Made by a program: the position numbers and the translations under genes. Shown piece after piece: positions 1 to 28,344 of a DNA stretch of 34,391 nt. Source of the DNA: Verrucomicrobiota bacterium (lineage in GTDB: Bacteria > Verrucomicrobiota > Verrucomicrobiia > Limisphaerales > UBA9464); assembly GCA_947454705.1 (NCBI GenBank), contig CANGKZ010000053.1:1-34391 (forward strand). The letters run 5' to 3'. The notes beneath the pieces are model-generated. The model saw only the letters and a program-made list of their open reading frames with translations. It ran no database searches and had not been told where the DNA came from. How positions within the stretch are numbered: the stretch's first letter is position 1; every line of letters begins with the position of its first letter.

Positions 1-567
1 AGTGCGGTGGCAGAGCGCAGCGTCGACACCGCTTTCGAAACCGATCGTGGTGCCGCACCGACCGATGACATCGCATCGGCCTAGAAAACATCCCCGAATC
101 CCCTCTGCGTCTCCGCGCCTCTGCGGTTTCTTTGCCCTGCTGCGCGGTATGCGTTGCAATGCGTCGCCCCTTGTATAAGTGGGGCGCGCGATTATTCACG
201 GCGCGGGTGGAACCGCGCCCTCCACAATGTTTGCGGCCTATGCGCTCGGTGGCCCCCATCCAGGGTGGAGGGCGTGGTTCCACCCACGCCCCATATTCGC
301 CTGCGGACCCCGTGTGAAGTCGCAGGCCGAAATGTGGAAACAACCGCTGAGAATCGCCGCCGCGCGATTTTGGAGTGCGGTGGCAGAGCGGAGCGTCGAC
401 ACCGCTTTCGAAACCGTTCGTGGTGCCACACCGACCGGTGACATCGCATCAGCCTAAGAAACATCCACGAATCCACCCTGCGTCTCCGCGCCTCTGCGGT
501 TCATTTGCCCTGCTCCGCGGTTGGCGTTGACCAAAGCGGCGTGGCGCTGCGCTTCCCGCCGCACTCC
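1..567 (+). repeat. Family 1 large repeat array, copy 1 (left end cut by window)
   Basis: A unit beginning GAGTGCGGTGGCAGAGCG recurs at position 373, so the period is about 373 bp. After the second, partial unit the array ends in CCGCCGCACTCC at 567. That terminus is the reverse complement of the unit start, so the array has inverted termini. The units contain the phrase TCTCCGCGCCTCTGCGGTT and a pair of long inverted arms around GGCGCGGGTGGAACC. Open frames on both strands here are by-products of the G+C-rich palindromes and look non-coding. Near-identical DNA lies at 20120-21060, and an inverted, modified form at 33294-34052. Confidence 0.9.
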
Positions 568-3213: not shown

Positions 3214-5115
3214 ATGCGCCGCATCACCTCCATCACGCTGGGACTCGCGCTCACCACGGGCCTCGCCGCCCGCGGGGAATCGGCGGACCAACTTTGGTCC
3301 AAGAAGGTGCAGCCCCTGTTTGATCTGCACTGCGTGAAGTGCCACGGCCCGCTGGAGCAAAAGAGCGGACTCGAACTCGACCGGACGGAGGCCGTGTTGA
3401 AGGGCGGCGACGAAGGACTGGTGGTGGTTCCCGGCGATGCGACCAAGAGCCGTCTGGTTCGCTACCTCGCCCCGGATGCCGATCCCCACATGCCGCCGAA
3501 GAAGCAGCTGTCGGAGGCGGACCGCGCGGCCGTCGCTGAATGGGTGATCGCACTTAAATCGGCACCCGCCGCCAGTGCCGCTGCCCCAGCGAAAGCGCCG
3601 CGACCGGCGAAGAAGTACGAAACGCTCACCGCCGCGATCGATGGATGGATCGCAGAGGGCTGGGCCGAACGAGGCATTCAACCTTCGGCCCCGGCAACGG
3701 ATCCAGTCTGGTGCCGCCGGGTCTATCTCGATCTGGCCGGACGCATCCCTACGGCGCAGGAGCTGGCCGAGTTTCTCGCCGCCCCGGCCGACACCCGTCG
3801 TGCCGCGTTGGTGGACCGGCTGCTGTCGGCCCCGGAGTATGCGGTTCGCATGCGTGAATTGTGGGACGTGTTCCTCATGGGCCGCCCCAAGCGCGATTCG
3901 CACGAGGATCGCCGACGCCAGAACGGCTGGTGGTCCTTTCTCGAAACCGCCTTCCGCGAGAATCGCCCCTGGGATGAAACCGTCCGCGCGCTGCTGATCG
4001 GACGTCCATCACGCCCCGAGGACAAGGGCGCGTCCTGGTTCCTCTACGAACGACGCAACGAGCATCAACAAATCGCCGAAGCCGTGGCCCCGGTGGTGTA
4101 TGGAACCAAAATTGATTGTGCCCAATGCCACGACCATCCCCTCACCCGCGAGATCAAGCAGGCGCACTACTGGGGACTCGTCGCTGCGTTCAATCGCAGC
4201 AAGAACGTGGACGGCGGTAGCGAGGTGGGCGAATCAGCCATCGGTGGATTCATCAATTTCACCAACCTGAAGAAGGAGTCGCAGCCCGCCGTGGTGCTGC
4301 TCTTGAACGGACGCAAGGTGGACGAGGTCCGGCCCGCAGCGGATCAGAAGGAGTCCGATTCCGATGCGCTGTACGTCGATCCCAAGGCCAAGGCAAAGGT
4401 GCCAAAGCAGTCGCGTCGGGAGGCCTTCGCCGAAGCTGCCACGCGTGACAATCCCCTGCTCGCCCGGGCGTTCGTGAACCGCATGTGGGCTGCCCTCATC
4501 GGCCGCGGCGTGGTGCATCCGGCCGATGAAATGAACGGGCGCAATCCGCCGAGCCATCCGGAGTTGCTCGATGCGCTGGCCACCGGATTTGCCGCCGACC
4601 ACCACGACATTCGCCATCTGCTCCGGGCCATTCTGCTTAGCCGGGTGTATGGGTTGTCCGGCGGAGTGACCGTGCCCGACGCGTTCGCCTCCGCCCCGGA
4701 GCGTCCGCTCACCGCGGAACAGATTGCCCGATCCTGGTGCGTCGCCCTGGGGCGTCCGACCGATCAGGACTCGCTGCGTCGCGCAGTAGTTCAAGCTCTG
4801 CCCGACGTGCTCCCGCGCGATTACAACGCCACCTTCCAGCAAGCCCAGTTCCTGGCGAATTCTCCGGCATTTGCCGAGATCTTGAAGCCCGTCGAAGGCG
4901 GAGCGATCCGGCGCATTGCCTCCCTTCCCGATCCGGAGGAACGCGTGCGTCAGACTTTTTTGGCCGTGTACGGACGCACGCCCGATGCCGAGGAACTCCG
5001 GGCCTCGGTTTCTTTGCTGAAGCCCAAGGGCAACCCGCCGGCGGATGCGGCCGCCGGCGTGTCCGATCTGTTCTGGGCATTGCTCACCAGCGCGGAATTC
5101 CTCACCCTTCCGTGA
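3214..5115 (+). CDS. Secreted haem protein, PSCyt1-DUF1549-DUF1553 type
   Basis: This 633-residue protein has a signal peptide (about 1-23) and a cytochrome c-like PSCyt1 domain with CVKCH (C40, C43, H44) and a candidate axial Met in HMPP (M93). An Ala/Pro linker leads to DUF1549 (about 136-320), which holds a second haem-type motif CAQCH (C302, C305, H306). DUF1553 follows at the C-terminus (about 400-630), with a typical NRMWA segment. The family is found mainly in Planctomycetota and Verrucomicrobiota and has no established reaction; a secreted redox role is inferred from the haem motifs. It is shorter than many relatives and lacks the CARCHxHKFDP form seen in the homologue at 22630-25524. 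A DUF1501 gene follows 25 bp later and a WD40 gene after that, which suggests one transcript. Confidence 0.88.
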   Translation: MRRITSITLGLALTTGLAARGESADQLWSKKVQPLFDLHCVKCHGPLEQKSGLELDRTEAVLKGGDEGLVVVPGDATKSRLVRYLAPDADPHMPPKKQLSEADRAAVAEWVIALKSAPAASAAAPAKAPRPAKKYETLTAAIDGWIAEGWAERGIQPSAPATDPVWCRRVYLDLAGRIPTAQELAEFLAAPADTRRAALVDRLLSAPEYAVRMRELWDVFLMGRPKRDSHEDRRRQNGWWSFLETAFRENRPWDETVRALLIGRPSRPEDKGASWFLYERRNEHQQIAEAVAPVVYGTKIDCAQCHDHPLTREIKQAHYWGLVAAFNRSKNVDGGSEVGESAIGGFINFTNLKKESQPAVVLLLNGRKVDEVRPAADQKESDSDALYVDPKAKAKVPKQSRREAFAEAATRDNPLLARAFVNRMWAALIGRGVVHPADEMNGRNPPSHPELLDALATGFAADHHDIRHLLRAILLSRVYGLSGGVTVPDAFASAPERPLTAEQIARSWCVALGRPTDQDSLRRAVVQALPDVLPRDYNATFQQAQFLANSPAFAEILKPVEGGAIRRIASLPDPEERVRQTFLAVYGRTPDAEELRASVSLLKPKGNPPADAAAGVSDLFWALLTSAEFLTLP

Positions 5116-5140
5116 AACCATTCCACGGCATCGCGCAGAC

Positions 5141-6478
5141 ATGAACACCCCTGATCCCATCCGCGAGCCCGCCCCCGGGGCGTGCCGCACCGATGAGCAC
5201 GTGTTGCATCGTCGCCTGTTCCTCAAGGGGCTCGCGGGCGGTGCGGCGTCGGTGGCCAGCTTCAGCGGTCTGTTCCAAAACCCCGGGTTTGCCGCCGATG
5301 TGAAGCGCGCCCAAAAACGGTGCATTCTCCTCTGGCTCTGCGGCGCCCCGAGCCAGTTCGAAACGTGGGATCCCAAGCCCGGCCGCCCCAGCAGCGGTCC
5401 CTTTGGAAGCATTCCCACCGCCATTCCCGGCATTCATTTTTCGTCGCTCATGCCGCGGTGCGCGTCGATCGCGGACCGGTTGAACATCGTGCGCAGCATG
5501 AAGACCGCGCAGACGGAACACCTGCAGGCCATCACCCTGCTGCAGCGTGGAAATCCGGAGCGCGCGGGCTTCACGCGTCCCACCCTCGGGAGCTCGATCT
5601 CGCACGCCCTGGGTCAGCTCGATTCGCCGATTCCGAATTTCGTCTTCATCGATCCCATCCCCGGCGGCAACGAGTTTGAAACCTTCAAGGCGGGCAACTG
5701 GGCCGGCTGGCTCGGATCCGAGCACGCCCCGGTTCGTGTGGGCGGTGATTACACGCGGCTCATCGCGCAGGCCGCGGAAACGATTCCCACGCACGATCGC
5801 GAATCGCGCGAAACCCTGCGCCGGTTTCTCACCGCGAAGTTCGAACGCGACCGCCAAAGCTCAGTTGCGCGAAGCCAGAACGCCGCGTTCGAGCGGATGC
5901 GCGGCATGTCGGCAAGCGCAGACCTGTTCGACCTGAACAAACTCCCCGCCGCCGACCGCGAACGCTACGGCCCTGGGAGCTTCGCGCAGCACACGCTGAT
6001 GGCGCGAAATCTGGTCGAACACGGGGCCCCGTTTGTGATGGTTGCGAACGGCATGAACTGGGACAATCACGTGTTCCAGCATGAGATCCACCAGATGCTC
6101 GTGCCCGAGCTCGACCGCGTGCTCCACAACCTGATTCAGGACCTCGAAGACCGGCGCATGCTCGATTCGACGCTCGTGGTGGCCATGGGGGAATTTGGAC
6201 GAACGCCGTGGCTGAACACCTCGCGCGGACGCGACCATTACCCGAATGCCTGGAGCATGATGATGACCGGATGCGGCCTGAAGCGAGGCGTGGTCACCGG
6301 AGCCACCGATGCCGACGGCGTGGACGTGATCGAGAAGCCGTACAACGAACAGAATCTCTTCGCGACGATTTTCACCGCGCTCGGACTCGATCCCCACGCC
6401 GAGTACGACCTGCCTGGAATGCCCACCTTTCACCGGGTGGAAAACCACGCCGAACCCATCCGCGAACTCCTCGCCTGA
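5141..6478 (+). CDS. DUF1501 family protein, Tat-exported
   Basis: The 445-residue product begins with a twin-arginine leader (HRRLFLKG, R24-R25, followed by an Ala/Gly-rich stretch), so export in folded form is likely. The body fits DUF1501, a family related to alkaline phosphatase/sulfatase folds: LWLCGAPSQFETWDPKP near the N-terminus, then ALGQL, GNWAGWLG, NWDNH and a late MGEFGRTP segment. No enzymatic activity is established for the family. DUF1501 genes are normally paired with PSCyt1/DUF1549/DUF1553 genes, as here (25 bp gap upstream). The frame is open from 5045, but the ATG at 5141 avoids overlap with the upstream gene and puts the Tat motif at the usual distance. The WD40 gene starts 10 bp after the stop. 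Confidence 0.9.
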   Translation: MNTPDPIREPAPGACRTDEHVLHRRLFLKGLAGGAASVASFSGLFQNPGFAADVKRAQKRCILLWLCGAPSQFETWDPKPGRPSSGPFGSIPTAIPGIHFSSLMPRCASIADRLNIVRSMKTAQTEHLQAITLLQRGNPERAGFTRPTLGSSISHALGQLDSPIPNFVFIDPIPGGNEFETFKAGNWAGWLGSEHAPVRVGGDYTRLIAQAAETIPTHDRESRETLRRFLTAKFERDRQSSVARSQNAAFERMRGMSASADLFDLNKLPAADRERYGPGSFAQHTLMARNLVEHGAPFVMVANGMNWDNHVFQHEIHQMLVPELDRVLHNLIQDLEDRRMLDSTLVVAMGEFGRTPWLNTSRGRDHYPNAWSMMMTGCGLKRGVVTGATDADGVDVIEKPYNEQNLFATIFTALGLDPHAEYDLPGMPTFHRVENHAEPIRELLA

Positions 6479-6488
6479 GGCCACGTCC

Positions 6489-7589
6489 ATGAAGCTCACT
6501 CTGATCAAGGACCACAAGCTGCCCACCGGCGTGCTGGGGCTCGCGGTGTCGGCCGATGGCAAACGTGCCTTCACCGCCTGCGCCGATGGAACGTTATCAG
6601 CCCTCGATTTGGAAACCGGCCACGCCGAGATTTTCGAAGAGCGGCACACCTCGTTCGCCAGCGGATGCGTGCTCCTGCCCGATGGCCAGACCCTGATCTC
6701 CGCAGGATACGACGGATCACTGATCTGGCACGACGTCGCCACCCGCCGCAGCCGCCTGCGCATCCAGGCGCACCATTTTTGGAGCTGGCAGCTGGCGCTT
6801 TCCCCCGACGGTCGTCGTGTGGCGAGCTGCACCGGCCAGTACCTGCCGGGCGGATGGAAGTACGAGCCCGCCGTGGAAACCGAGGCTTCGGTGAAGGTGT
6901 ACGACACCAAGACCGGAGATCGCATCGCCGCACTGCACCACGGTCCGCCCGTGTTGAGCTGCGCATTCAGTCCGGACAGCCGGAACCTGGCCGCGGCGAA
7001 CATGCTCGGTGAAGTGCGCGTGTGGGATTTGGCGAACGTGCAACCGGGGCAGGCGCGTGAACCGATCTCCAAATGGTCCACGTCGGACTTCACCTCCTGG
7101 GGCACGACCAAGACGCATCATTACTGCGGCGGCATCTACGCCCTCGCCTTCGCTCCGGGTGCGGACCAACTCATCGGCTGCGGCATGGGCCCGATGGGCG
7201 ATCCGATGGCCGGCAACGGCAAGATGACCTGGCAGCGCTGGGCCTGGCGCAAGGGCGAGCGAGTGGACCAAATTCGGGACGGTCAGCACGGCACGGGGTT
7301 GATGGAAACGCTGGCGTGGCATCCCGACGGGAAACATTTCCTCATGGGCGGACGCCAGGCGCAGGGCACGTGGAATGCGGCTGTGTTCTCCGCGGCCGAT
7401 GGAACGCTGGCCCATTCCATCGACACCAAAAAACGCATCACCCGCGCGCAGTTCAGCGCCGATGGGGCCACGCTGTTTCTCGCCGGTGCGAACGGCCAGG
7501 GCGCGCGCAAGGACGGCGTGTGGCCCGCGTGGGGAAGACTGCAGTCGTACCGGGTTGAGCGTGCCGAAGTTGAAGGGCTGAAAAGTTGA
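6489..7589 (+). CDS. WD40-repeat beta-propeller protein without signal peptide
   Basis: This 366-residue protein consists of about seven WD40-like blades. Recurrent LSPDGRRVAS/FSPDSRNLAA strands are followed by V-x-V-W/Y-D segments, for example VKVYDTKTG and VRVWDLANV. No signal peptide or membrane helix is visible at the start (MKLTLIKDHKLPTG), so by sequence it would stay in the cytoplasm although its operon partners are exported. WD40 proteins are usually binding scaffolds, and a role in assembly or regulation of the upstream pair is only an inference. The last codons and the stop lie inside a repeat (GTTGAAG-type motif at 7569-7602), which suggests that a small element defines its present C-terminus. 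Confidence 0.85.
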   Translation: MKLTLIKDHKLPTGVLGLAVSADGKRAFTACADGTLSALDLETGHAEIFEERHTSFASGCVLLPDGQTLISAGYDGSLIWHDVATRRSRLRIQAHHFWSWQLALSPDGRRVASCTGQYLPGGWKYEPAVETEASVKVYDTKTGDRIAALHHGPPVLSCAFSPDSRNLAAANMLGEVRVWDLANVQPGQAREPISKWSTSDFTSWGTTKTHHYCGGIYALAFAPGADQLIGCGMGPMGDPMAGNGKMTWQRWAWRKGERVDQIRDGQHGTGLMETLAWHPDGKHFLMGGRQAQGTWNAAVFSAADGTLAHSIDTKKRITRAQFSADGATLFLAGANGQGARKDGVWPAWGRLQSYRVERAEVEGLKS

Positions 7590-7820
7590 AGCGTTGAAGG
7601 GGAATCCGACGCTGGCGCGAGCGTTGTCTCATCCGTTTGGAGTCCCAGCTTCGGACGGTTCTGGGAGGCGCGCGAGGAGTCGGCCCGAGGAAGGAATCTG
7701 GCCCTTCGGTTGTATTCACCGCCCAACAGCCGAGCCGCGTAAACACGGTACTCCAAACGAGAGACCAGCACCCTGCCCTCCTCTTCAACCCTTTAACTTT
7801 TCAACCCTTCAACTTTCACC
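7569..7820. repeat. Inverted-repeat intergenic element with GTTGAA-type ends
   Basis: The left end (7569-7602) is a run of GTTGAAG/CTGAAAAG phrases. The right end (7784-7820) is the same motif in inverse orientation (TTCAACC/TTTTCAACC). Nested inside is a perfect 10-bp inverted pair, CGTTTGGAGT at 7634-7643 and ACTCCAAACG at 7750-7759. Inner flanks TCTC and GAGA extend the symmetry imperfectly. The left motif recurs with one visible mismatch over about 30 bases at 28275-28310. No gene lies in 7590-7904 apart from these elements. Confidence 0.75.
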
Positions 7821-7904: not shown

Positions 7905-8624
7905 ATGCGCATTTTGGTCCTGGAAGACGAACCCCAGCTCGCCCGCCACGTGACCCGGGCCTTGGAACGGCACGGTCACGAGGCCACCGCCTGCCATGAT
8001 GGAGCCGAGGGCTGCAAGGTCGCCCTGGAGTACGCCCCAGATTTGATCGTCCTCGACCTGAACCTGCCGAACCTCGACGGCCTGTCCGTCCTCGCCCGGC
8101 TCAAGGAATCGCGCCTGCCCGCGCGGGTCATCATCCTCACCGCACGCGGCGATGTGGAACACCGGGTGAAGGGATTGAAGGCCGGAGCAGACGACTACCT
8201 CGCCAAGCCCTTTTCGATGGAGGAGCTCATTGCTCGAATCGAAGCACTCGGACGCCGCGGGGGCAGTCCGAGTCCGTCGGAATCCCTCCGGGTGGCGGAT
8301 CTTCAGGTGGACATCCAATCGCGTCGCGTCGCCCGGTCGGGTCAAACGCTCGCTCTTTCGCCGCGCGAGTTCGATGTGCTGCTCGTTCTTGCCCGGGAAC
8401 CTGGTCGCGTGTTTTCGCGCACCGAATTGTGCGAACGCGTTTGGCAGCGTGATTACGAGTACGACACCCGCACGGTGGAAATCCTGATCGCTCGTCTTCG
8501 CAAGAAGGTGGACGCAGGATTCGCCTCCGCGTTGATTCACACCATTCGCAGCGTGGGCTACACCCTCCGCCCGGGCGATGCACCAGTCCGCGAGGACAAG
8601 TCCCATGATACAGAAGCCGTCTAA
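7905..8624 (+). CDS. OmpR/PhoB-family response regulator
   Basis: This 239-residue protein has an N-terminal receiver domain with the acidic pair E7/D8, phosphoacceptor D51, T79 and K101 (LAKPF), all conserved. A C-terminal winged-helix DNA-binding domain follows (about 137-232, including LSPREFDVLLVLARE and IRSVGYTLR). It should bind DNA as a dimer when phosphorylated. The cognate kinase is almost certainly the histidine kinase at 9264-11060, two genes downstream. The ATG at 7905 starts directly on the receiver domain and is preceded by TTTGATTTCGC, a leader shared with the gene at 729. The next gene starts 20 bp before this stop, so translation is probably coupled. Direct targets are unknown; its own operon is the natural candidate. 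Confidence 0.93.
   Translation: MRILVLEDEPQLARHVTRALERHGHEATACHDGAEGCKVALEYAPDLIVLDLNLPNLDGLSVLARLKESRLPARVIILTARGDVEHRVKGLKAGADDYLAKPFSMEELIARIEALGRRGGSPSPSESLRVADLQVDIQSRRVARSGQTLALSPREFDVLLVLAREPGRVFSRTELCERVWQRDYEYDTRTVEILIARLRKKVDAGFASALIHTIRSVGYTLRPGDAPVREDKSHDTEAV
8592..8596 (+). promoter_or_regulatory. Ribosome binding site for the copper protein
   Basis: GAGGA lies 8 bases before the ATG at 8605. It supports that start over the upstream in-frame ATG at 8578, which would add nine residues before the signal peptide. Confidence 0.55.
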
Positions 8625-9267
8625 CTTCCTCGCCCTCGCCGCCACGCTTGCCGCATTGCTGGTCGCCCCGGCAATCGTGCGTGCCGACGGCGTGACCCTC
8701 ACGGGCCGCATCGCGCTTCCGAAGGCGCTCTCCACCCCGGTGATGAACAAGCGCTACGACATCATCGCATCGGGCGGCGTGCTCTCCCCCAATCCCCCGC
8801 GCGCCGTCGTGTATCTCGACGGAGTCCACTCGCTCGCCGCGACTCCGCGGACCGAGCAGGTGGTTCAAACCAACTTCGCCTTCGTTCCTGCACTCCTTCC
8901 GATCCAGGTCGGAACGCGCGTGGAGTTCCCCAATGCGGATCCCACGTTCCACAACGTCTTTTCCTACTCGCCTCCGAAGCGATTCGATCTCGGACGCTAC
9001 ACCCCCGAGGAACGCCCCATTCCGTCGCAGCTGTTCGACAAGCCGGGATTGGTTACGCTCCGATGCGACATCCATGAACACATGCGCGGGTTGATCCTCA
9101 TTCTCGACACGCCGCATTTCGTGCTCAGCGGCACCGATGGAAAATACCGCATCGAGAATCTCCCCGCCGGCCACTTCACCCTGAAGGCGTGGCTGAACAG
9201 CAAGAACACGTTGGAAAAGAGCATCGATCTCCCGTCCACCGGCACCGTTGAATTGAATCTTCCGTGA
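8605..9267 (+). CDS. Secreted cupredoxin-like (blue-copper) protein with carboxypeptidase-regulatory-like tail
   Basis: This 220-residue protein carries a signal peptide (about 1-27). The central domain resembles the cupredoxin-like 'methylamine utilization protein' group. H116 lies in PTFHNVFSY, and a C-terminal ligand loop reads RCDIHEHM with C154, H157, H159 and M160. This is the His/Cys/His/Met set expected for a type 1 copper site, with a short loop. The last 50 residues (TDGKYRIENLPAGHFTLKAW) look like a carboxypeptidase-regulatory/transthyretin-like beta domain. It could carry electrons or sense or bind copper in the periplasm. Its place between a response regulator (20-bp overlap) and a histidine kinase (4-bp overlap) suggests a role in signal input or as a regulated product. 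Metal binding is inferred from residues only. Confidence 0.78.
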   Translation: MIQKPSNFLALAATLAALLVAPAIVRADGVTLTGRIALPKALSTPVMNKRYDIIASGGVLSPNPPRAVVYLDGVHSLAATPRTEQVVQTNFAFVPALLPIQVGTRVEFPNADPTFHNVFSYSPPKRFDLGRYTPEERPIPSQLFDKPGLVTLRCDIHEHMRGLILILDTPHFVLSGTDGKYRIENLPAGHFTLKAWLNSKNTLEKSIDLPSTGTVELNLP

Positions 9268-11060
9268 GCCACGCCCCCTCCAGAACTGCGGGTGGGTTTG
9301 GTGGATATCGCATCAAGCTCATGGTGGTGATGATGCTGATGGTCTCCGCCGTCACCGGTGCCGGGCTGTACCTGGCCGAACGCAATCTCGCCGAAAGCGT
9401 AACCAGCGGCCTCCAGCGCGAATTCCTCGCCGAGCTCGGCGCCCTGCATGGCATCCAGGAATTGCGTCAGGCCAATTTCGCCGAGGTCTGCCGAGCCCTG
9501 GTTCGCAAGCCGCGCATTCACGCCGCGCTCGAGGACAACGCGCTCGATCTCCTCTACCCGATCGCCAAGGACGAGCTCCGCGATCTCATGAACTCGGCTC
9601 CCGCCGGCAAGGGTTCCGGATTTGAGGCGGTGTTCTACCGGTTCCTCGATTTCAACGGCCGGGTAATCGCACCGCGCGATTCGCCCGATGCCGGACGACT
9701 GCTTCCCGAGGAGGAAGCACAACTTTCGCTTCGAGAACTCCCGCACGGGCATCAAACGGGATACTTGCTTCGCCACACGGGAACCACCGCCGGTCCTGCC
9801 TCAGGCTCCCCAGCTGACGTCACCGAAGTGATCGCGACTCCGATCATCTCCACGGAAACCGGCGAACCCATCGCGGCCCTGGCCATCGGCTTCAAACCGG
9901 TGGAGCCCGGAACGAAGTCCGGCGACCGCGGCATCCGCAGCGGCATCTGGATGGGCGACCGCCTCCATCTGGCGACCCTCTCCACCGGCGCGCAGTCGAT
10001 GTTGAGCGAAGTGCTGGCCCGAACCCTGAGCAATCCAGACTCCGAGGAACGCGCCACACCGGTGTCGATCGATGGCACGGCTCACCTGCTCTTTCACAAG
10101 CAACTGAATCCGGGATCGATGTTCCCGGCGGCGCACGAAATCTGCCTCTATCCGCTCGTGGACCTCCTCGCACGTCAGCGTCAGCTCCGATGGAGTTTCG
10201 CCGGCGGCGGCGGACTCGTGCTGCTTGGCGGGTTGATCGCGAGTGGGTTCTTCTCCGCGCGGCTCTCCGCTCCGGTGGAACAGCTCGCCGTCGATTCCGA
10301 GGAAAACCGCGCGCAACGCGCCCGTGCCGAGGCCGCCCTGGAACTCACGCACGAGGGTCTGCAACGCGCGATCCGCTTCTCCGCCGACGCGTCGCACCAG
10401 CTCAAGACCCCGGTCACGGTGTTGCGATCCGGGTTGGAGGAAATTCTCTCCCGCGAATCGGTGCCCTCCGAGGTGCGAGAGGAACTGGGGGATCTCGTTC
10501 ACCAAACCTACCGGCTCACCAGCGTGATCGAGGATCTGCTGCTGCTTTCGCGCGTCGATGCCGGCCGGCTTCAGCTTCACAAGGGGCCTGTGGATTTGTC
10601 CCGCTTGCTCGAGGCCGGACTCGATGATTTGGGAATGGTTCCCGAATCCGAGGACTTCGCGGTGGAAGCGGATGTTCCTCCGAATCTCACCATCGAGGGC
10701 GAGAGCCGCTACACCAGCATCATCCTTCAAAACCTTTTGGAGAACGCGCGAAAATACAACCTGCCCGGAGGGAAGATTCGCATCGTCGCACGCACGGAGG
10801 ACGACCGCGTCAGCGTGCGGATCGGCAACACCGGGCGTCCCATCCCGGCCGAGGTGCAGGACCACATTTTCGAACGGTTCCACCGCGGCTCCGTGGGTGA
10901 AAACGTGCCCGGACACGGACTCGGACTAAACCTGGCCCGCGAACTCGCCCGGCTCCACGGAGGCGATCTGCGATTGGTTCGATCGGATTCCACCTGGACC
11001 GAATTTGAGGCGTGCTTCAACCGCATGCGCGATTCCTTTTCGAGGGAGGTCACGGCGTGA
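9264..11060 (+). CDS. Membrane sensor histidine kinase
   Basis: This 598-residue protein starts with GTG, overlapping the previous stop by 4 bp. TM1 spans about 17-37 and TM2 about 310-333, enclosing an extracytoplasmic sensor of about 270 residues that looks Cache-like. A short linker leads to HisKA with the phosphoacceptor H378 (SHQLKTP). The HATPase_c domain has an N-box (LQNLLENARKYN, N490/N494), a G1-type NTGRPIP and a G2 GHGLGL (550-555). The G1 box has Asn where many kinases have Asp, a variant seen in other kinases. The partner is the response regulator at 7905. The sensor has few cysteines and no obvious metal cluster, so if copper is the signal it may be presented by the neighbouring copper protein. 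Confidence 0.92.
   Translation: MSHAPSRTAGGFGGYRIKLMVVMMLMVSAVTGAGLYLAERNLAESVTSGLQREFLAELGALHGIQELRQANFAEVCRALVRKPRIHAALEDNALDLLYPIAKDELRDLMNSAPAGKGSGFEAVFYRFLDFNGRVIAPRDSPDAGRLLPEEEAQLSLRELPHGHQTGYLLRHTGTTAGPASGSPADVTEVIATPIISTETGEPIAALAIGFKPVEPGTKSGDRGIRSGIWMGDRLHLATLSTGAQSMLSEVLARTLSNPDSEERATPVSIDGTAHLLFHKQLNPGSMFPAAHEICLYPLVDLLARQRQLRWSFAGGGGLVLLGGLIASGFFSARLSAPVEQLAVDSEENRAQRARAEAALELTHEGLQRAIRFSADASHQLKTPVTVLRSGLEEILSRESVPSEVREELGDLVHQTYRLTSVIEDLLLLSRVDAGRLQLHKGPVDLSRLLEAGLDDLGMVPESEDFAVEADVPPNLTIEGESRYTSIILQNLLENARKYNLPGGKIRIVARTEDDRVSVRIGNTGRPIPAEVQDHIFERFHRGSVGENVPGHGLGLNLARELARLHGGDLRLVRSDSTWTEFEACFNRMRDSFSREVTA
11045..11050 (+). promoter_or_regulatory. Shine-Dalgarno for the outer-membrane protein
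   Basis: GGAGGT stands 6 bases before GTG 11057 and lies inside the end of the kinase gene. It decides the start: the frame is open from 11012, but only the GTG has a strong site and gives a clean signal peptide. Confidence 0.75.
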
Positions 11061-12280
11061 ATTCGCATTCCTTCCTTCGAGCGTGCGTGGCCTCTGCGGT
11101 CCTCGCCCTGCCCTCGGTGCAGGCTGAGGAGTGGCTCGACCGGTTGGACGACTGGCTCACGGTGTCCTCATGGAATGACCGCATTCGCACGCGACTGAGC
11201 GGGCTGATTGACGTCGAGGGATACCACTTCGACTCCGAACCGCCCGGATTGATCGACACTTCGCGGGAGTTCCTCGCCGTGCCGCGGCTCACGCTGATGC
11301 TCGATTCACAGATCGGCTCCAAGGTGTACTTCTTCGCGCAAACGCGCGTGGACCGCGGATTCGATCCAGGCGACATGGGATGGCGTCACCGGTTTGAAGA
11401 ATACGCGGTCCGATTGACTCCAGGCGAGGACGACCGACTGAGCCTGCAACTTGGAAAGGCAGCTTCCGTGGTGGGCAATTGGATTCCACGTCATCTCTCG
11501 TGGGACAATCCCTTCATCAACGCACCTCTCCCGTATGAGAGCGTCACGGATCTCTACGACGGCGAGGCCCCGCTCTCGCGCGACGACTTCCTGCACGGCC
11601 CTCCGGAAAAGAAGTACGAGTACATCCCCGGGATCTGGGGCCCGGTGTATGCCACCGGAGGATCCGTCGCGTACAAGGCGGGCAAAATCGACATCGCCGC
11701 TGAAATTAAGAACGCCGCGCTTTCATCACGACCCGAGGCGTGGGATCTGGGGCATACCGGTTTCGATCATCCCACATTCAGTGGCCGAATCGGATACCGC
11801 CCCGATCCGCGATGGAACCTCGGAGTGTCCGCCAGCTCGGGTACCTATTTTGAATCCATCGCCCAATCGACGATTCCGCCGGGGCATCAATTCTACGATT
11901 ACCGTCAAACGGTCATCGGACAGGATCTCGGATTTGCATGGCATCACTGGCAGCTCTGGGCGGAGGCCTATGAAATGCGATTCGACGTTCCATTCGTCGG
12001 GAACGCAGATCTGCTGATGTATTACATCGAAGCGAAGTACCGCTTCACGCCGCGATGCTTTGCCGCGGTGCGGTGGAACCAGCAGTACTTCGGAACCGTG
12101 CCCAACGACACCGGCGGATTCGAGCGCTGGGGACACAATCTCTGGCGCGCTGAAGCTGCGCTCGGATTCCGGCTCACCGCACACAGCCAGTTCAAAATTC
12201 AGTACAGCCTGCAACAAACCACGGACGCAGGCCACGAATCGAGCAACACCGTTGCGGGTCAGTTCACGATTCGATTCTAG
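11057..12280 (+). CDS. Outer-membrane beta-barrel protein (porin-like)
   Basis: This 407-residue protein starts with GTG (4-bp overlap with the kinase stop) behind a strong Shine-Dalgarno sequence. The signal peptide ends near residue 23 (SVQA). The rest alternates short amphipathic strands rich in aromatic residues (for example GSKVYFFAQTRVDRG, KFRFTP-like and WHHWQLWAEAYEMRF) and ends in QFTIRF. A terminal Phe is the usual insertion signal of outer-membrane barrels. There is no coiled-coil or OprB-type plug that I can name, so the exact porin family is open. As last gene of the two-component operon it may be the regulated output, perhaps importing or exporting a solute linked to the copper protein. 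No terminator is obvious after the stop. Confidence 0.75.
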   Translation: MNSHSFLRACVASAVLALPSVQAEEWLDRLDDWLTVSSWNDRIRTRLSGLIDVEGYHFDSEPPGLIDTSREFLAVPRLTLMLDSQIGSKVYFFAQTRVDRGFDPGDMGWRHRFEEYAVRLTPGEDDRLSLQLGKAASVVGNWIPRHLSWDNPFINAPLPYESVTDLYDGEAPLSRDDFLHGPPEKKYEYIPGIWGPVYATGGSVAYKAGKIDIAAEIKNAALSSRPEAWDLGHTGFDHPTFSGRIGYRPDPRWNLGVSASSGTYFESIAQSTIPPGHQFYDYRQTVIGQDLGFAWHHWQLWAEAYEMRFDVPFVGNADLLMYYIEAKYRFTPRCFAAVRWNQQYFGTVPNDTGGFERWGHNLWRAEAALGFRLTAHSQFKIQYSLQQTTDAGHESSNTVAGQFTIRF

Positions 12281-12575
12281 CGGTTTTGCTGGGCATTCTC
12301 GCGTTTTTCGCGCGTCGCACCGTGCATGTAACAGCCCCGTTACTGTATCGGCGTTGCCGTTCCGCACACCGATTCGGAATGTGTGGGTGTGTCAACCAGG
12401 CAGGCTTCACTCCTGATCGCAGCGCACCCAACGGAATCTGAGTTCTTCAGATCCCGGGCCGGTTCCCCATACCTGCGATTCCGTGCGTCCGCGCCTGGGA
12501 CATTCAGTTCAGGTACTACCACCCCGCCCAACTCCAAACTGCCAAGTCCCCAAAGTCCCTGAATCCGCATCATTC
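12281..12575. other. Intergenic region before the HAF-repeat gene
   Basis: No gene is seen. It contains two short inverted repeats: GTAAC/GTTAC around AGCCCC near 12330, and ATCTGA/TCAGAT around GTTCT near 12440. Neither is followed by a T-run, and neither matches a riboswitch class I recognise. Confidence 0.4.
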
Positions 12576-15095
12576 ATGAAACACTCCATTCAACAGAAAC
12601 TCCCCCTGATCGGGGCTCTGCTGCTCGCCTCGCAGGCGATCGGTCAGGGTTATCGATCGAACGATCTCACCCCCCTTGGAGCCACGAGCGGCAAATTCGT
12701 GAGCAACGCCGGCGGCGCTCAGGTCGGAACGATCATCACCGGCGCCAGTGGCTATGCGCACGCCGTGATCGAAAACGGAAATGCGCTCGGCGTGGTGGAT
12801 CTGAATCCTCCGAATTTCTACTATTCCGTCGCCAACTGCTCCGATGATTCGCAGCAGGCCGGCTGGGGATACGGCATTGCCTTGGGCAATACCCACGCGC
12901 TCGTCTGGAATGGCTCCGCCGCTTCGTACGCGGATCTCCATCCGAGCGGCTACATGTTCTCGGAATGCCTAGGCGTTCACAGCGGTGAACAGGTCGGCTA
13001 CGCGCAGAATCAGTCCTATTTCATCACCGCCTCCCACGCCTACTGCTGGTTCGGCACCGCAGCATCCGGCGTGGATCTGCACCCGACCCAGTGGGTCTAT
13101 CCGTTCTCCCGCGCCAAGGGCGTTCACAGCGGCGAGGAGGTTGGTTACGTCTCCACCGTCGGTTATCCCGAGGGCGATTACGGTGGCTACCACACCACGA
13201 GCCACGCGGTTCGCTGGACCGGATCCGCCGCGAGTGCGGTCGATCTCCACCCGGTCGGGTTCGATGCCTCCGAAGCACTCGCCTCCACCGGCACCCAGCA
13301 GGGCGGATGGGCCTACACGGCGCTCGGAACGAACCACATGCACGCCATGATCTGGTCGGGCGACGCCGCCAGCGCAGTGGACCTCCACCCGGCAGGCTAC
13401 ACCGATTCCAAGGTCACTTCCATGACCGCGACTCAGCAGGTCGGTGAAGGCTGGGTTGGACCTGCTTTCGGTTACGGCTCTGTTCGCCACGCCCTCGCGT
13501 GGAGCGGCACCGCCGACAGCGTCGTGGATCTCAACCAATACCTGCCCGCGGGCTACACCAATGCGGTTGCCACCGGCGTGGATGCGAACGGCAACATCGT
13601 CGGCTACGCCTACAACACCCCGTATCTCGGCGGATTTAACATCTGGCCCGGTTCCATCGCCGTGGTTTTTGCGCCCGGTGCGAACCAGGTTCAGGGGCTG
13701 CAATCGCTGAGCCTCAGCTCATCGAATGTGGCACCCGGTGCCTCGGTCACCGCCACCGTCACCCTCGGCTCCCCGGCCCCGGTCGGCGGCACGAGCATCA
13801 GCTTCGCGAGTTCTGTGACGAACTTCGTTCCGACCCCGTCCCCCATCGTGATTCCCGAAGGCGCAACGAACGTGGTCTTCACGTTCGTCACCGGCGGAAC
13901 AACGCTGACTTCTCCCGCGTCGCTGAAGTTGTACGCGACCGACGGCGTGGTGAGCTCCACCGCCGCGCTTACACTCACTCCGGTAGTGAACCTCACTGGG
14001 ATCAATGCGAATCCCATTGAAGGAGGTTTCGCCACCTACGCCACGGTCTCGTTGAACATTCCGGCCCAGGGCGCCGCAGCGGTTTCCGTGAACAGCGGCA
14101 ACCCCGCACTCGCCACGGTTCCGGCTACCGTCACCGTGCCTTCCGGCTACCTCGCGTCCTCATTCTCCATCGCCACGGCACCGGTCTCCACCTTGACCAC
14201 CGTTCCCATCACAGCGAACTACAACGGCAGCACGGTCTCCACCACGCTGACCCTCAGCCCCGCCCCGGTGGTCTCGCTGTCCGGAATCACCGCACCAGAA
14301 ATGGTCGGTGGCTACCAGCTCCCGGTGACCGTCACCGTCAACAACTTCCCCCGCGCCGCGGAAGGCGCCGTGGTCACGCTCACCAGCGGTGACACCGGCA
14401 CCCTTCAAGTGCCCACCACGGTGACCATCCCGTACGGGACGTTCAGCGCCACCGTCATGGCCAACACCTCGGTGGTCAACGGTCGCAAGGGAGTCTCCCT
14501 CAAGGCCGCCTACAACGGTTCCACCGCGAGCACCACGGTGTTTGTGAATCCGGTTCCCACCGTGACCATCACCCAGGCGGATTACCTCACCGACACCAAG
14601 ATGCTGAAGATCCAGGCATCGACCAGTTTCACCAACGCCATCCTCACCTACGGCACCAGCCCTGATCTTGCACCGCTCGGCACCATGCAGTTCGAGCTCG
14701 GTGTGTTCAAAGGATCCATCGTTCTCGATACCGCGCCCACTCAGGCAACTGTTTGGAACTCCCTCGGCGGATTCGCCACGGTTCCCGTCAACATCAAGAC
14801 CAGCAGCGCTGCCACCGGCGGCGGCGGCGGTGGTGGTGGTGGCGGCGGTGGTGGCGGTGGTGGTGGCGGAACCACGGCCAGTTCGTACAAGTTGACCATC
14901 GTCACCAACGGCAAGGGCACCGTGACCACGAGCCCGTCGGGAACCTCATTTGCTCCGGGAACCGTTGTCACCTTGACCGCAACCCCGGCGACAGGATCCC
15001 CCTGGATCGGCTGGACCGGTGCCGTGACCAGCACCAGCAAGACCATCACGGTCACCATGAATTCGGCCCTCTCCGTGACGGCCAACTTCAAGTGA
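12576..15095 (+). CDS. Large secreted HAF-repeat / Ig-like / InlB-like protein with polyglycine linker
   Basis: This 839-residue protein has a signal peptide (about 1-24). Residues about 60-370 contain six copies of a unit of roughly 50 residues with the signature HAxxWxGxAASxVDLHPxGY then GVHSGEQVGYA. This matches the 'HAF' extracellular repeat family, whose function is unknown. About 385-700 hold Ig/Calx-beta-like beta repeats (VTVNN, TVPSGY, YNGSTxSTT recurring). Eighteen consecutive glycines (748-765) follow, then an InlB-like bacterial repeat domain (about 770-839) of the form NGKGTVTTSPSGTSF. The last domain and the linker suggest a surface or matrix protein. No PEP-CTERM, LPXTG or type IX sorting signal is visible. 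The ATG at 12576 starts the signal peptide; the frame is open upstream to 12483 but that adds nothing plausible. A strong terminator follows. Confidence 0.82.
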   Translation: MKHSIQQKLPLIGALLLASQAIGQGYRSNDLTPLGATSGKFVSNAGGAQVGTIITGASGYAHAVIENGNALGVVDLNPPNFYYSVANCSDDSQQAGWGYGIALGNTHALVWNGSAASYADLHPSGYMFSECLGVHSGEQVGYAQNQSYFITASHAYCWFGTAASGVDLHPTQWVYPFSRAKGVHSGEEVGYVSTVGYPEGDYGGYHTTSHAVRWTGSAASAVDLHPVGFDASEALASTGTQQGGWAYTALGTNHMHAMIWSGDAASAVDLHPAGYTDSKVTSMTATQQVGEGWVGPAFGYGSVRHALAWSGTADSVVDLNQYLPAGYTNAVATGVDANGNIVGYAYNTPYLGGFNIWPGSIAVVFAPGANQVQGLQSLSLSSSNVAPGASVTATVTLGSPAPVGGTSISFASSVTNFVPTPSPIVIPEGATNVVFTFVTGGTTLTSPASLKLYATDGVVSSTAALTLTPVVNLTGINANPIEGGFATYATVSLNIPAQGAAAVSVNSGNPALATVPATVTVPSGYLASSFSIATAPVSTLTTVPITANYNGSTVSTTLTLSPAPVVSLSGITAPEMVGGYQLPVTVTVNNFPRAAEGAVVTLTSGDTGTLQVPTTVTIPYGTFSATVMANTSVVNGRKGVSLKAAYNGSTASTTVFVNPVPTVTITQADYLTDTKMLKIQASTSFTNAILTYGTSPDLAPLGTMQFELGVFKGSIVLDTAPTQATVWNSLGGFATVPVNIKTSSAATGGGGGGGGGGGGGGGGGGTTASSYKLTIVTNGKGTVTTSPSGTSFAPGTVVTLTATPATGSPWIGWTGAVTSTSKTITVTMNSALSVTANFK
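14817..14870 (+). repeat. (GGN)18 polyglycine-coding microsatellite
   Basis: Eighteen GGC/GGT/GGA codons in a row encode an uninterrupted glycine linker between the Ig-like repeats and the InlB-like domain. Codons are mixed GGC and GGT, so the repeat is not a pure trinucleotide tract, but it could still change length by slippage. Confidence 0.95.
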
Positions 15096-28274: not shown

Positions 28275-28310
28275 GTTGAAGGGTTGAAAAGTTGAAGCGT
28301 TGAAGGGGGG
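28275..28310. repeat. GTTGAA-type motif
   Basis: GTTGAAGGGTTGAAAAG then TTGAAGCGTTGAAGG is nearly identical to 7569-7602. It lies upstream of recQ within the false N-terminal extension of that frame. Confidence 0.75.
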
Positions 28311-28344
28311 AAATCGCGGCGGCGCGCGAGCGCGAGCGTAAGAC

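Follow-up and report, generated by a model that had tools for sequence, protein, structure and literature searches.

What does a secreted copper protein do in an operon between a response regulator and a histidine kinase? The question is raised by four overlapping genes on contig CANGKZ010000053.1 of a Verrucomicrobiota bacterium (Limisphaerales, assembly GCA_947454705.1), of which positions 1 to 34,391, called here the window, were analysed. The genes encode, in order, an OmpR/PhoB-type response regulator, a secreted cupredoxin, a histidine kinase and a predicted outer-membrane beta-barrel (Table 1). All four lie where a preliminary description of this DNA had placed them, and successive genes overlap by 20, 4 and 4 bp. 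That description had also suggested a sensing module in which the periplasmic copper protein either feeds the signal to the kinase or is under its control. The results given below support a sensing module that contains the copper protein. We favour, with a probability of about 0.58, a three-part envelope sensor plus regulator in which the secreted cupredoxin serves the receptor as its input subunit in the periplasm.

Gene order around the cupredoxin

Peptide patterns of the window cupredoxin were scanned in one genome per species (84,980 species). This gave 133 relatives, and the best 80 loci were used to compare gene order. By their record titles all 80 are from Verrucomicrobiota, and patterns drawn from the window protein favour such close relatives. 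The loci are related, the counts are not independent, and flanking genes were clustered without being named. By tblastn, the kinase sensor starts within 400 bp downstream of the cupredoxin in 80/80 loci, and the barrel comes next in all 62 loci that have at least 2.6 kb of room. This goes beyond chance. The regulator behaves differently. It lies directly upstream in 40 loci, downstream of the barrel in 20 (with 47-54% identity to the window regulator), and was not seen in 20, many of which are cut by contig ends; two loci (L022 and L032) have a partial regulator at the downstream contig end. Stop-to-stop frames gave lower counts (sensor adjacent in 76/80; regulator upstream, downstream or not seen in 36, 17 and 27), and the tblastn counts were preferred. 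Because the regulator varies in this way among the 80 loci, the conserved unit is cupredoxin, kinase and barrel, with the regulator as a movable output. A fixed order of all four genes as the unit was rejected, the regulator being downstream or not seen in 40/80, and the idea that the place of the copper protein between regulator and kinase matters finds no support in these counts.

The spacing of the genes follows the same division. With start codons picked by rule, the 4-bp overlap of cupredoxin and kinase recurs in 64/80 loci and that of kinase and barrel in 47/66. The distance between regulator and cupredoxin ranges from -17 to +321 bp in 39 loci with an upstream regulator, and the 20-bp overlap of the window does not recur; the fortieth value (653, L063) stems from a mis-called frame. 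Translational coupling throughout the operon, as first described, can therefore be kept in general for cupredoxin, kinase and barrel, but not for the regulator.

Receptor outputs beside the cupredoxin

When 387 Verrucomicrobiota genomes were searched with a profile, the cupredoxin family came up at 50 places in 38 of them, the window's included. The layout of the window, an OmpR-type regulator with this kinase, is present at ten places. At eight others a hybrid histidine kinase with a related sensor directly follows the cupredoxin, and at a ninth (L137) a hybrid kinase lies further on. The cupredoxin precedes a class III cyclase with a related sensor at 16 places and a Ser/Thr kinase with a Cache/CHASE4 sensor at two. 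Three places have cupredoxin and barrel only, with no receptor on the same strand. COX1 is close by at five, and at the remaining five the queries reached no partner; of these, L167 has a histidine kinase match about 2.8 kb upstream, L164 a receiver match close by, and L169 is on a 4.4-kb contig. Pfam confirmed ten partner proteins (L122, L125, L127, L132, L134, L138, L139, L136, L151 and L160) and also that of L137, and HAMP was confirmed in the six cyclases scanned out of 16. The two Ser/Thr kinases differ in their sensors: at L139:5458-8584 the cupredoxin is followed by a dCache_3-HAMP-Ser/Thr kinase, and at L160:5337-8733 a cupredoxin with a lipoprotein-like start is followed by a CHASE4-HAMP-Ser/Thr kinase. 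At one more locus, L065, a close cupredoxin is kept together with sensor and barrel, but the kinase is a hybrid.

The family is also carried by plasmids: 53 records have a relative, and seven of them were inspected. Four relatives (two from Caballeronia, one each from Comamonas and Novosphingobium) directly precede a dCache_3-HAMP-GGDEF-EAL protein, in which dCache_3 is below cut-off in the case of Novosphingobium. These relatives are annotated as "methylamine utilization protein" or "carboxypeptidase regulatory-like". In a third Caballeronia plasmid only a Cache fragment is annotated after the cupredoxin relative. The relatives on the Sinorhizobium meliloti and Phyllobacterium plasmids are near SCO and cbb3 oxidase genes and have no receptor. 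In Caballeronia and Novosphingobium records (Table 1), the plasmid cupredoxin has a DUF3034 gene and a truncated globin of group 1 as neighbours, the globin of L084 having a signal-peptide-like start; DUF3034 was found in 0/6 of the window's genome and five relatives, in a search without positive control.

Specificity and phylogeny of receptor linkage

A receptor output within 1.5 kb on the same strand accompanies 36/50 family members, and 38/50 when either strand is counted. At loci of other cupredoxins (PF00127, PF13473) from the same phylum the corresponding number is 0/58; among them a receiver-domain match occurs in two (L208 and L221) and a COX1 match in eleven. These controls are the 60 best-ranked matches less L199 and L201, which were set aside as family members, and the 58 left represent 56 distinct places. 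On stretches as short as those of the controls, 27/30 family loci, again those ranked best, still had a receptor output.

In a tree of 67 cupredoxins, 55 receptor- or barrel-linked proteins were separated from 12 oxidase-linked or unlinked ones by a branch with 97% SH-aLRT support, and seven output changes were needed among the receptor-linked rows. The tree was made by a quick method and has several long branches. It includes neither the second, ligand-less copy at L137 nor the plasmid member L089, whose receptor gene carries no annotation beyond that of a short Cache protein, and of the 80 loci it omits 69. It suggests a single origin of the receptor-linked cupredoxins.

The two sides also differ at residue 128, which is D or E in 124/125 linked rows, a set that includes the 80 close loci, and N in 9/12 of the others; one of these 12 (L161, none/respiratory) has D. 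In a second sample of 39 places from the genus, family and order of the window organism, a receptor was found with 12 of 14 acidic residues and with 0/25 non-acidic ones. As to the two exceptions, L258 is cut by a contig end inside the sensor, and L249 has a barrel. Three of the 14 acidic records (L246-L248) had already been used, which leaves 11 new ones, nine of them with a receptor.

The cupredoxin and its copper site

The window cupredoxin is below every Pfam and NCBIfam cut-off (best CarboxypepD_reg, 3e-4, and halocyanin, 0.007). Neither Cupredoxin_1 nor Copper-bind of Pfam appears in it at E <= 1; such a match is a means of detection and not a defining trait. Its AlphaFold model has a blue-copper (amicyanin/plastocyanin) fold at pLDDT 81.9. 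Blue-copper proteins usually serve as electron carriers. Foldseek matched this model to NirK, plastocyanin, amicyanin and pseudoazurin with a best E of 1.2e-6, and the top 50 rows of VIA gave the same proteins at Z 12.4-10.6, mostly over residues ~80-168. The best VIA match (Z 12.4) covers 97 residues with a root-mean-square deviation (rmsd) of 2.3 A, most others 81-88 residues at about 2 A. With its ligands in the order H-C-H-M and this predicted fold, the protein is, on the model, a type-1 copper protein.

Loss of the copper ligands had been named as a finding that would speak against the proposal. They are kept, however, in 136/138 aligned family rows, the exceptions being L169 and a second copy at L137. 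The rows comprise the 80 loci, the 50 places of the phylum sample, seven plasmid members and the L137 second copy, L143 being L041 repeated. In the second sample 38/39 keep the ligands, and L271 is without two of them. Because the ligands are kept, the alignment implies that the copper site matters. At L137:6415-7973 two cupredoxins stand in tandem, and the second has lost three of the four ligands.

The sensor of the kinase

Modelling of the 330-aa N-terminal part of the kinase (pLDDT 87.7) gave a double Cache domain, whose two modules sit on a long N-terminal helix with a membrane helix on either side. Foldseek ranked mainly Cache sensors at the top, from kinases, GGDEF proteins and chemoreceptors, besides a few PAS proteins. 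In VIA, the periplasmic domains of LuxQ take ranks 1-4 and 6 (Z 12.2-11.7, rmsd 5.1-5.4 A, 194-203 residues), the first of them at Z 12.2 with an rmsd of 5.2 A over 200 residues; this rank is a hint only, a model of a methyl-accepting chemotaxis protein being close at Z 11.8 and many Cache sensors at about 9-11. The Pfam Cache models, which serve detection and do not define the domain, had no match in the window sensor, and among 38 sensor rows sCache_3_2 was found in three (best 7e-5) and dCache_1 in one (0.29). A sequence search of solved structures had no match for the sensor either.

The relation of this sensor to those of the other outputs was seen in two ways. With the sensor profile of the window family, matches extend over nearly the full sensors of the L121 hybrid kinase (8e-73) and of the L122 and L125 cyclases (6e-40 and 3e-39); searched against only the GGDEF-EAL proteins, this profile gave nothing significant (E 0.06 or worse). 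In profile-profile comparison with hhalign, it matched an 11-row dCache_3-type set, made up of GGDEF-EAL, cyclase and hybrid kinase proteins, with probability 97.7 and E 1.6e-12 over 273 columns.

In the 387 genomes, the sensor type of the window (A1-type) occurs at 13 places beside the cupredoxin and at seven places without it. A candidate docking patch of the sensor, D91 and E104, is lost in two cupredoxin-less paralogs; these are two cases only, and the cyclase paralogs could be aligned only in part. In G169, a second regulator-kinase pair with the same sensor type and no cupredoxin (L171:2158-5282) stands about 4 kb downstream of a complete set. L172 (4019-4721 and 8121-10693) has remnants of sensor and barrel about 3.4 kb before a cupredoxin-less regulator-kinase pair, again with this sensor type.

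The outer-membrane barrel

The window copy of the fourth gene product has no Pfam match. Among 39 aligned barrel rows a minority has weak porin-like matches (BBP2 in nine, KdgM in five, Phenol_MetA_deg in four), and 36/39 end in a C-terminal F, typical of outer-membrane barrels. On these sequence features the product is classed as an outer-membrane beta-barrel. The one match that it gave in a sequence search of solved structures was judged meaningless. The 387 genomes contain 17 barrels of full or nearly full length. A cupredoxin cluster surrounds 16 of these, and the other one (G013) adjoins a cupredoxin remnant; shorter pieces occur in G119 and G181 without an intact cupredoxin. The G013 locus (L178:6326-7598) keeps most of the barrel and a short, weak cupredoxin remnant (7e-4), has no receptor match, and apparently represents decay of the system.

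Weighing the explanations

The preliminary description left a choice between a cupredoxin that feeds the signal and one that is under the control of the kinase. As far as gene order can tell, the former fits better, because the cupredoxin is found beside the receptor also where a cyclase, a Ser/Thr kinase or a GGDEF-EAL protein forms the output. The periplasmic parts (cupredoxin and Cache domain) and often the outer-membrane part (barrel) are constant and the cytoplasmic part varies, which is the pattern to be expected of a cupredoxin that acts upstream of the receptor.

Several observations weigh against an input subunit. L123, L124 and L126 keep cupredoxin and barrel without a receptor on the same strand, so the pairing with the barrel may be the primary one. 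The profile-profile match of the sensors may be at the level of the superfamily, and the sensors compared are all cupredoxin-linked. The seven A1-type sensors without a neighbouring cupredoxin belong to two regulator-kinase pairs and five cyclases; this sensor can thus be kept without the gene beside it, which argues against an absolute need for the cupredoxin, and both pairs occur in genomes with a cupredoxin elsewhere. No single frame with both a cupredoxin and a receptor match was found among the 50 family places and the 39 of the second sample, so that no fusion speaks for contact between the two proteins. On the tree, well-supported branches alone force fewer changes (two two-component, two hybrid, one each for the other groups), and the counts are not independent, 13 cyclase loci appearing to share further neighbours. 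Lastly, in a mirror-tree of 65 loci, for which no significance was computed, the cupredoxin shows about equal covariation with the kinase core (partial r 0.24) and the sensor (0.26). The largest covariation there is between sensor and barrel distances (partial r 0.59); L065 and loci lacking a part were left out, and slow and fast proteins may pair by rate.

This last value would suit the alternative that survives best, although we think it unlikely: that cupredoxin and barrel are themselves the working unit, for electron transfer to the cell surface or for uptake of copper or a substrate, and that the receptor monitors or controls this unit, the cupredoxin being no sensor subunit. It would account for the near-constant company of barrel and cupredoxin (16/17, the 17th by its remnant) even where a same-strand receptor is absent, and for the cytochrome oxidase genes near receptor-less relatives in some loci. 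In 14/16 cyclase and 2/2 Ser/Thr kinase loci, however, there was no match to three barrel queries and cupredoxin and receptor are kept, and barrel pieces also occur without the cupredoxin (G119). Moreover, none of the cyclase, Ser/Thr kinase and GGDEF-EAL outputs is itself a regulator of a neighbouring gene.

The same persistence with other outputs lowers further the chances of an ordinary periplasmic carrier or copper buffer whose expression is under two-component control, the co-location reflecting regulation. A regulator and its target do often share an operon, and the best NCBIfam match of the window regulator, though below cut-off, is the heavy-metal family TIGR01387. Here, however, the cupredoxin directly precedes the receptor in the same operon, and other cupredoxins had a receptor output at 0/58 loci, though two of them have the receiver-domain match mentioned above. 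We consider this explanation improbable. A more specific carrier, the electron carrier of methylamine oxidation, was set aside on an uncontrolled negative only: the methylamine dehydrogenase light chain (PF02975) was found in 0/10 carrier genomes, with no positive control.

A two-component system for copper resistance, like CopRS/CusRS but joined by a copper protein, is very improbable and was rejected. Heavy-metal models are the top NCBIfam matches of both regulator and kinase, but with 207.7 of 279.2 bits (TIGR01387) and 135.4 of 292.55 bits (TIGR01386) they are far below the curated cut-offs, and the modelled sensor is a double Cache domain; copper-efflux genes may nevertheless lie among the flanking genes of the 80 loci. 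Chance or lineage inertia, by which an old operon would persist without functional significance, would exploit the relatedness of the loci and can practically be dismissed, since the tree needs seven output changes with cupredoxin and sensor staying together and the 4-bp overlap is kept in 64/80.

A possible mechanism and its meaning

If the cupredoxin is the input subunit, its type-1 copper site would take up a state (oxidised or reduced, copper-loaded or empty, or ligand-bound) that reports conditions at the cell surface. The barrel may either admit the stimulus or dock the cupredoxin at the outer membrane. The cupredoxin would then bind, or release, the double-Cache domain of the kinase, and the change in this domain would alter how far the OmpR-type regulator is phosphorylated. 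The candidate signals are redox state, copper, and O2 or NO. Four plasmid members have a truncated globin beside them and the sister branch is linked to oxidases, which makes a respiratory or gas signal plausible.

More broadly, these proteins may be grouped as "cupredoxin-coupled receptors", a proposal to which we give about even odds. In such receptors a blue-copper protein related to oxidase-linked ones, perhaps recruited once, would be the subunit that senses copper or redox state, detachable from the Cache receptor and often accompanied by a barrel of its own. Verrucomicrobiota and Pseudomonadota together would have such receptors with no fewer than five kinds of output: OmpR-type two-component, hybrid kinase, class III cyclase, Ser/Thr kinase and GGDEF-EAL. 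The signalling branch would be marked by an acidic residue next to the loop of the copper ligands (D/E128). The signal is not known for many Cache receptors. If the copper protein gives the input, one group of them reads whether the envelope is in a given copper or redox state; since the outputs are exchanged while the cupredoxin stays constant, one input assay could then serve five signalling chemistries. Relatives labelled "methylamine utilization protein" would also gain a suggested function, and there would be a natural set of parts for building redox or copper sensors.

Features of the locus and its surroundings

Table 1. Coordinates of the operon genes, parts of their products and associated plasmid genes
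Feature	Position	Strand	Remarks
OmpR/PhoB-type response regulator, 239 aa	7905..8624	+	Pfam Response_reg 8e-28, Trans_reg_C 5e-25
Secreted cupredoxin, 220 aa	8605..9267	+	ATG start at 8605
Histidine kinase, 598 aa	9264..11060	+	GTG start; Pfam HisKA and HATPase_c
Outer-membrane beta-barrel (predicted), 407 aa	11057..12280	+	GTG start; C-terminal F
Cupredoxin, signal peptide	N-terminus		read from sequence
Cupredoxin, blue-copper domain	residues about 80-168		AlphaFold model matches
Cupredoxin, copper ligands	H116, C154, H157, M160		H, C, H and axial M in order
Cupredoxin, family signature	F127-D128		
Cupredoxin, residue 128	three after K125		in stretch following first copper ligand
Cupredoxin, tail			CarboxypepD_reg-like (Pfam, below cut-off)
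Kinase, N-terminal part	~330 aa		two membrane helices around periplasmic double-Cache sensor, then HisKA and HATPase_c
DUF3034 gene and truncated globin beside plasmid cupredoxin	L084:4506-5893, L086:4396-5855, L089:4533-5797, L090:4541-5757		

Directly upstream of the operon, at 3214-7589, are a planctomycete-type cytochrome PSCyt1/PSCyt2/PSD1 gene, a DUF1501 gene and a WD40 gene, the latter two of which are also kept in locus L004. The motif TTTCAACCCTTCAAC has seven matches with up to two mismatches on both strands of the window, against 0.08 expected: two pairs at 7569-7813, upstream of the operon, and three at 28275-28313, near 28.3 kb. Downstream, 12483-15095 encodes an 870-aa protein with a long glycine run and an InlB-type repeat domain at the C-terminus. 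In the window a promoter scan found 0 sites, an Rfam scan none at gathering scores, and six terminator-like sites were counted against a shuffled mean of 4.4.

Comparison with known systems

No description of this gene set was found among the matches listed in the open-licence literature, and the words cupredoxin, copper and methylamine are all absent from the main text of a review of cyclic di-GMP sensory systems. Its components nevertheless resemble those of several known systems. The window cupredoxin shares with amicyanin the blue-copper fold and the C-x2-H-x2-M ligand spacing that is amicyanin's, and several plasmid relatives carry the amicyanin-type label "methylamine utilization protein"; unlike amicyanin, the cupredoxins of this family are linked to receptors. 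With CusRS and CopRS the operon has in common an OmpR-type regulator and a HisKA kinase, as well as the best NCBIfam models, but it differs in scores far below cut-off, in its sensor, and in having a separate copper protein.

LuxP has the fold of a solute-binding protein. In LuxPQ a Cache-like kinase sensor is read through this separate periplasmic protein, and an analogous arrangement is proposed here; the partner, however, models as a cupredoxin and not as a solute-binding fold, and the operon has a barrel. Stimulation of receptors by solute-binding proteins is described as widespread (PMC9602780). In anatomy, not by homology, there is a likeness to HmsCDE of Yersinia, consisting of periplasmic HmsC, the diguanylate cyclase HmsD, and HmsE, which has been called a tripartite signalling system (PMC5550408) and in which a redox-responsive periplasmic protein binds an inner-membrane signalling enzyme (PMC5550408, PMC8846402). 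Both systems would combine a periplasmic redox-type protein, an inner-membrane signalling enzyme and an envelope partner in one operon. HmsC, however, uses disulphides and not copper, and the output is GGDEF alone. A redox-active metal cofactor is linked to Cache sensors in the sCache_heme receptors, which have stand-alone redox and signalling forms (PMC12889525, preprint). There the heme is built into the Cache domain, whereas in the window system the cofactor would sit on a separate protein. Taken together, a receptor read through a periplasmic partner is of a known kind, and a blue-copper partner with interchangeable outputs appears to be new.

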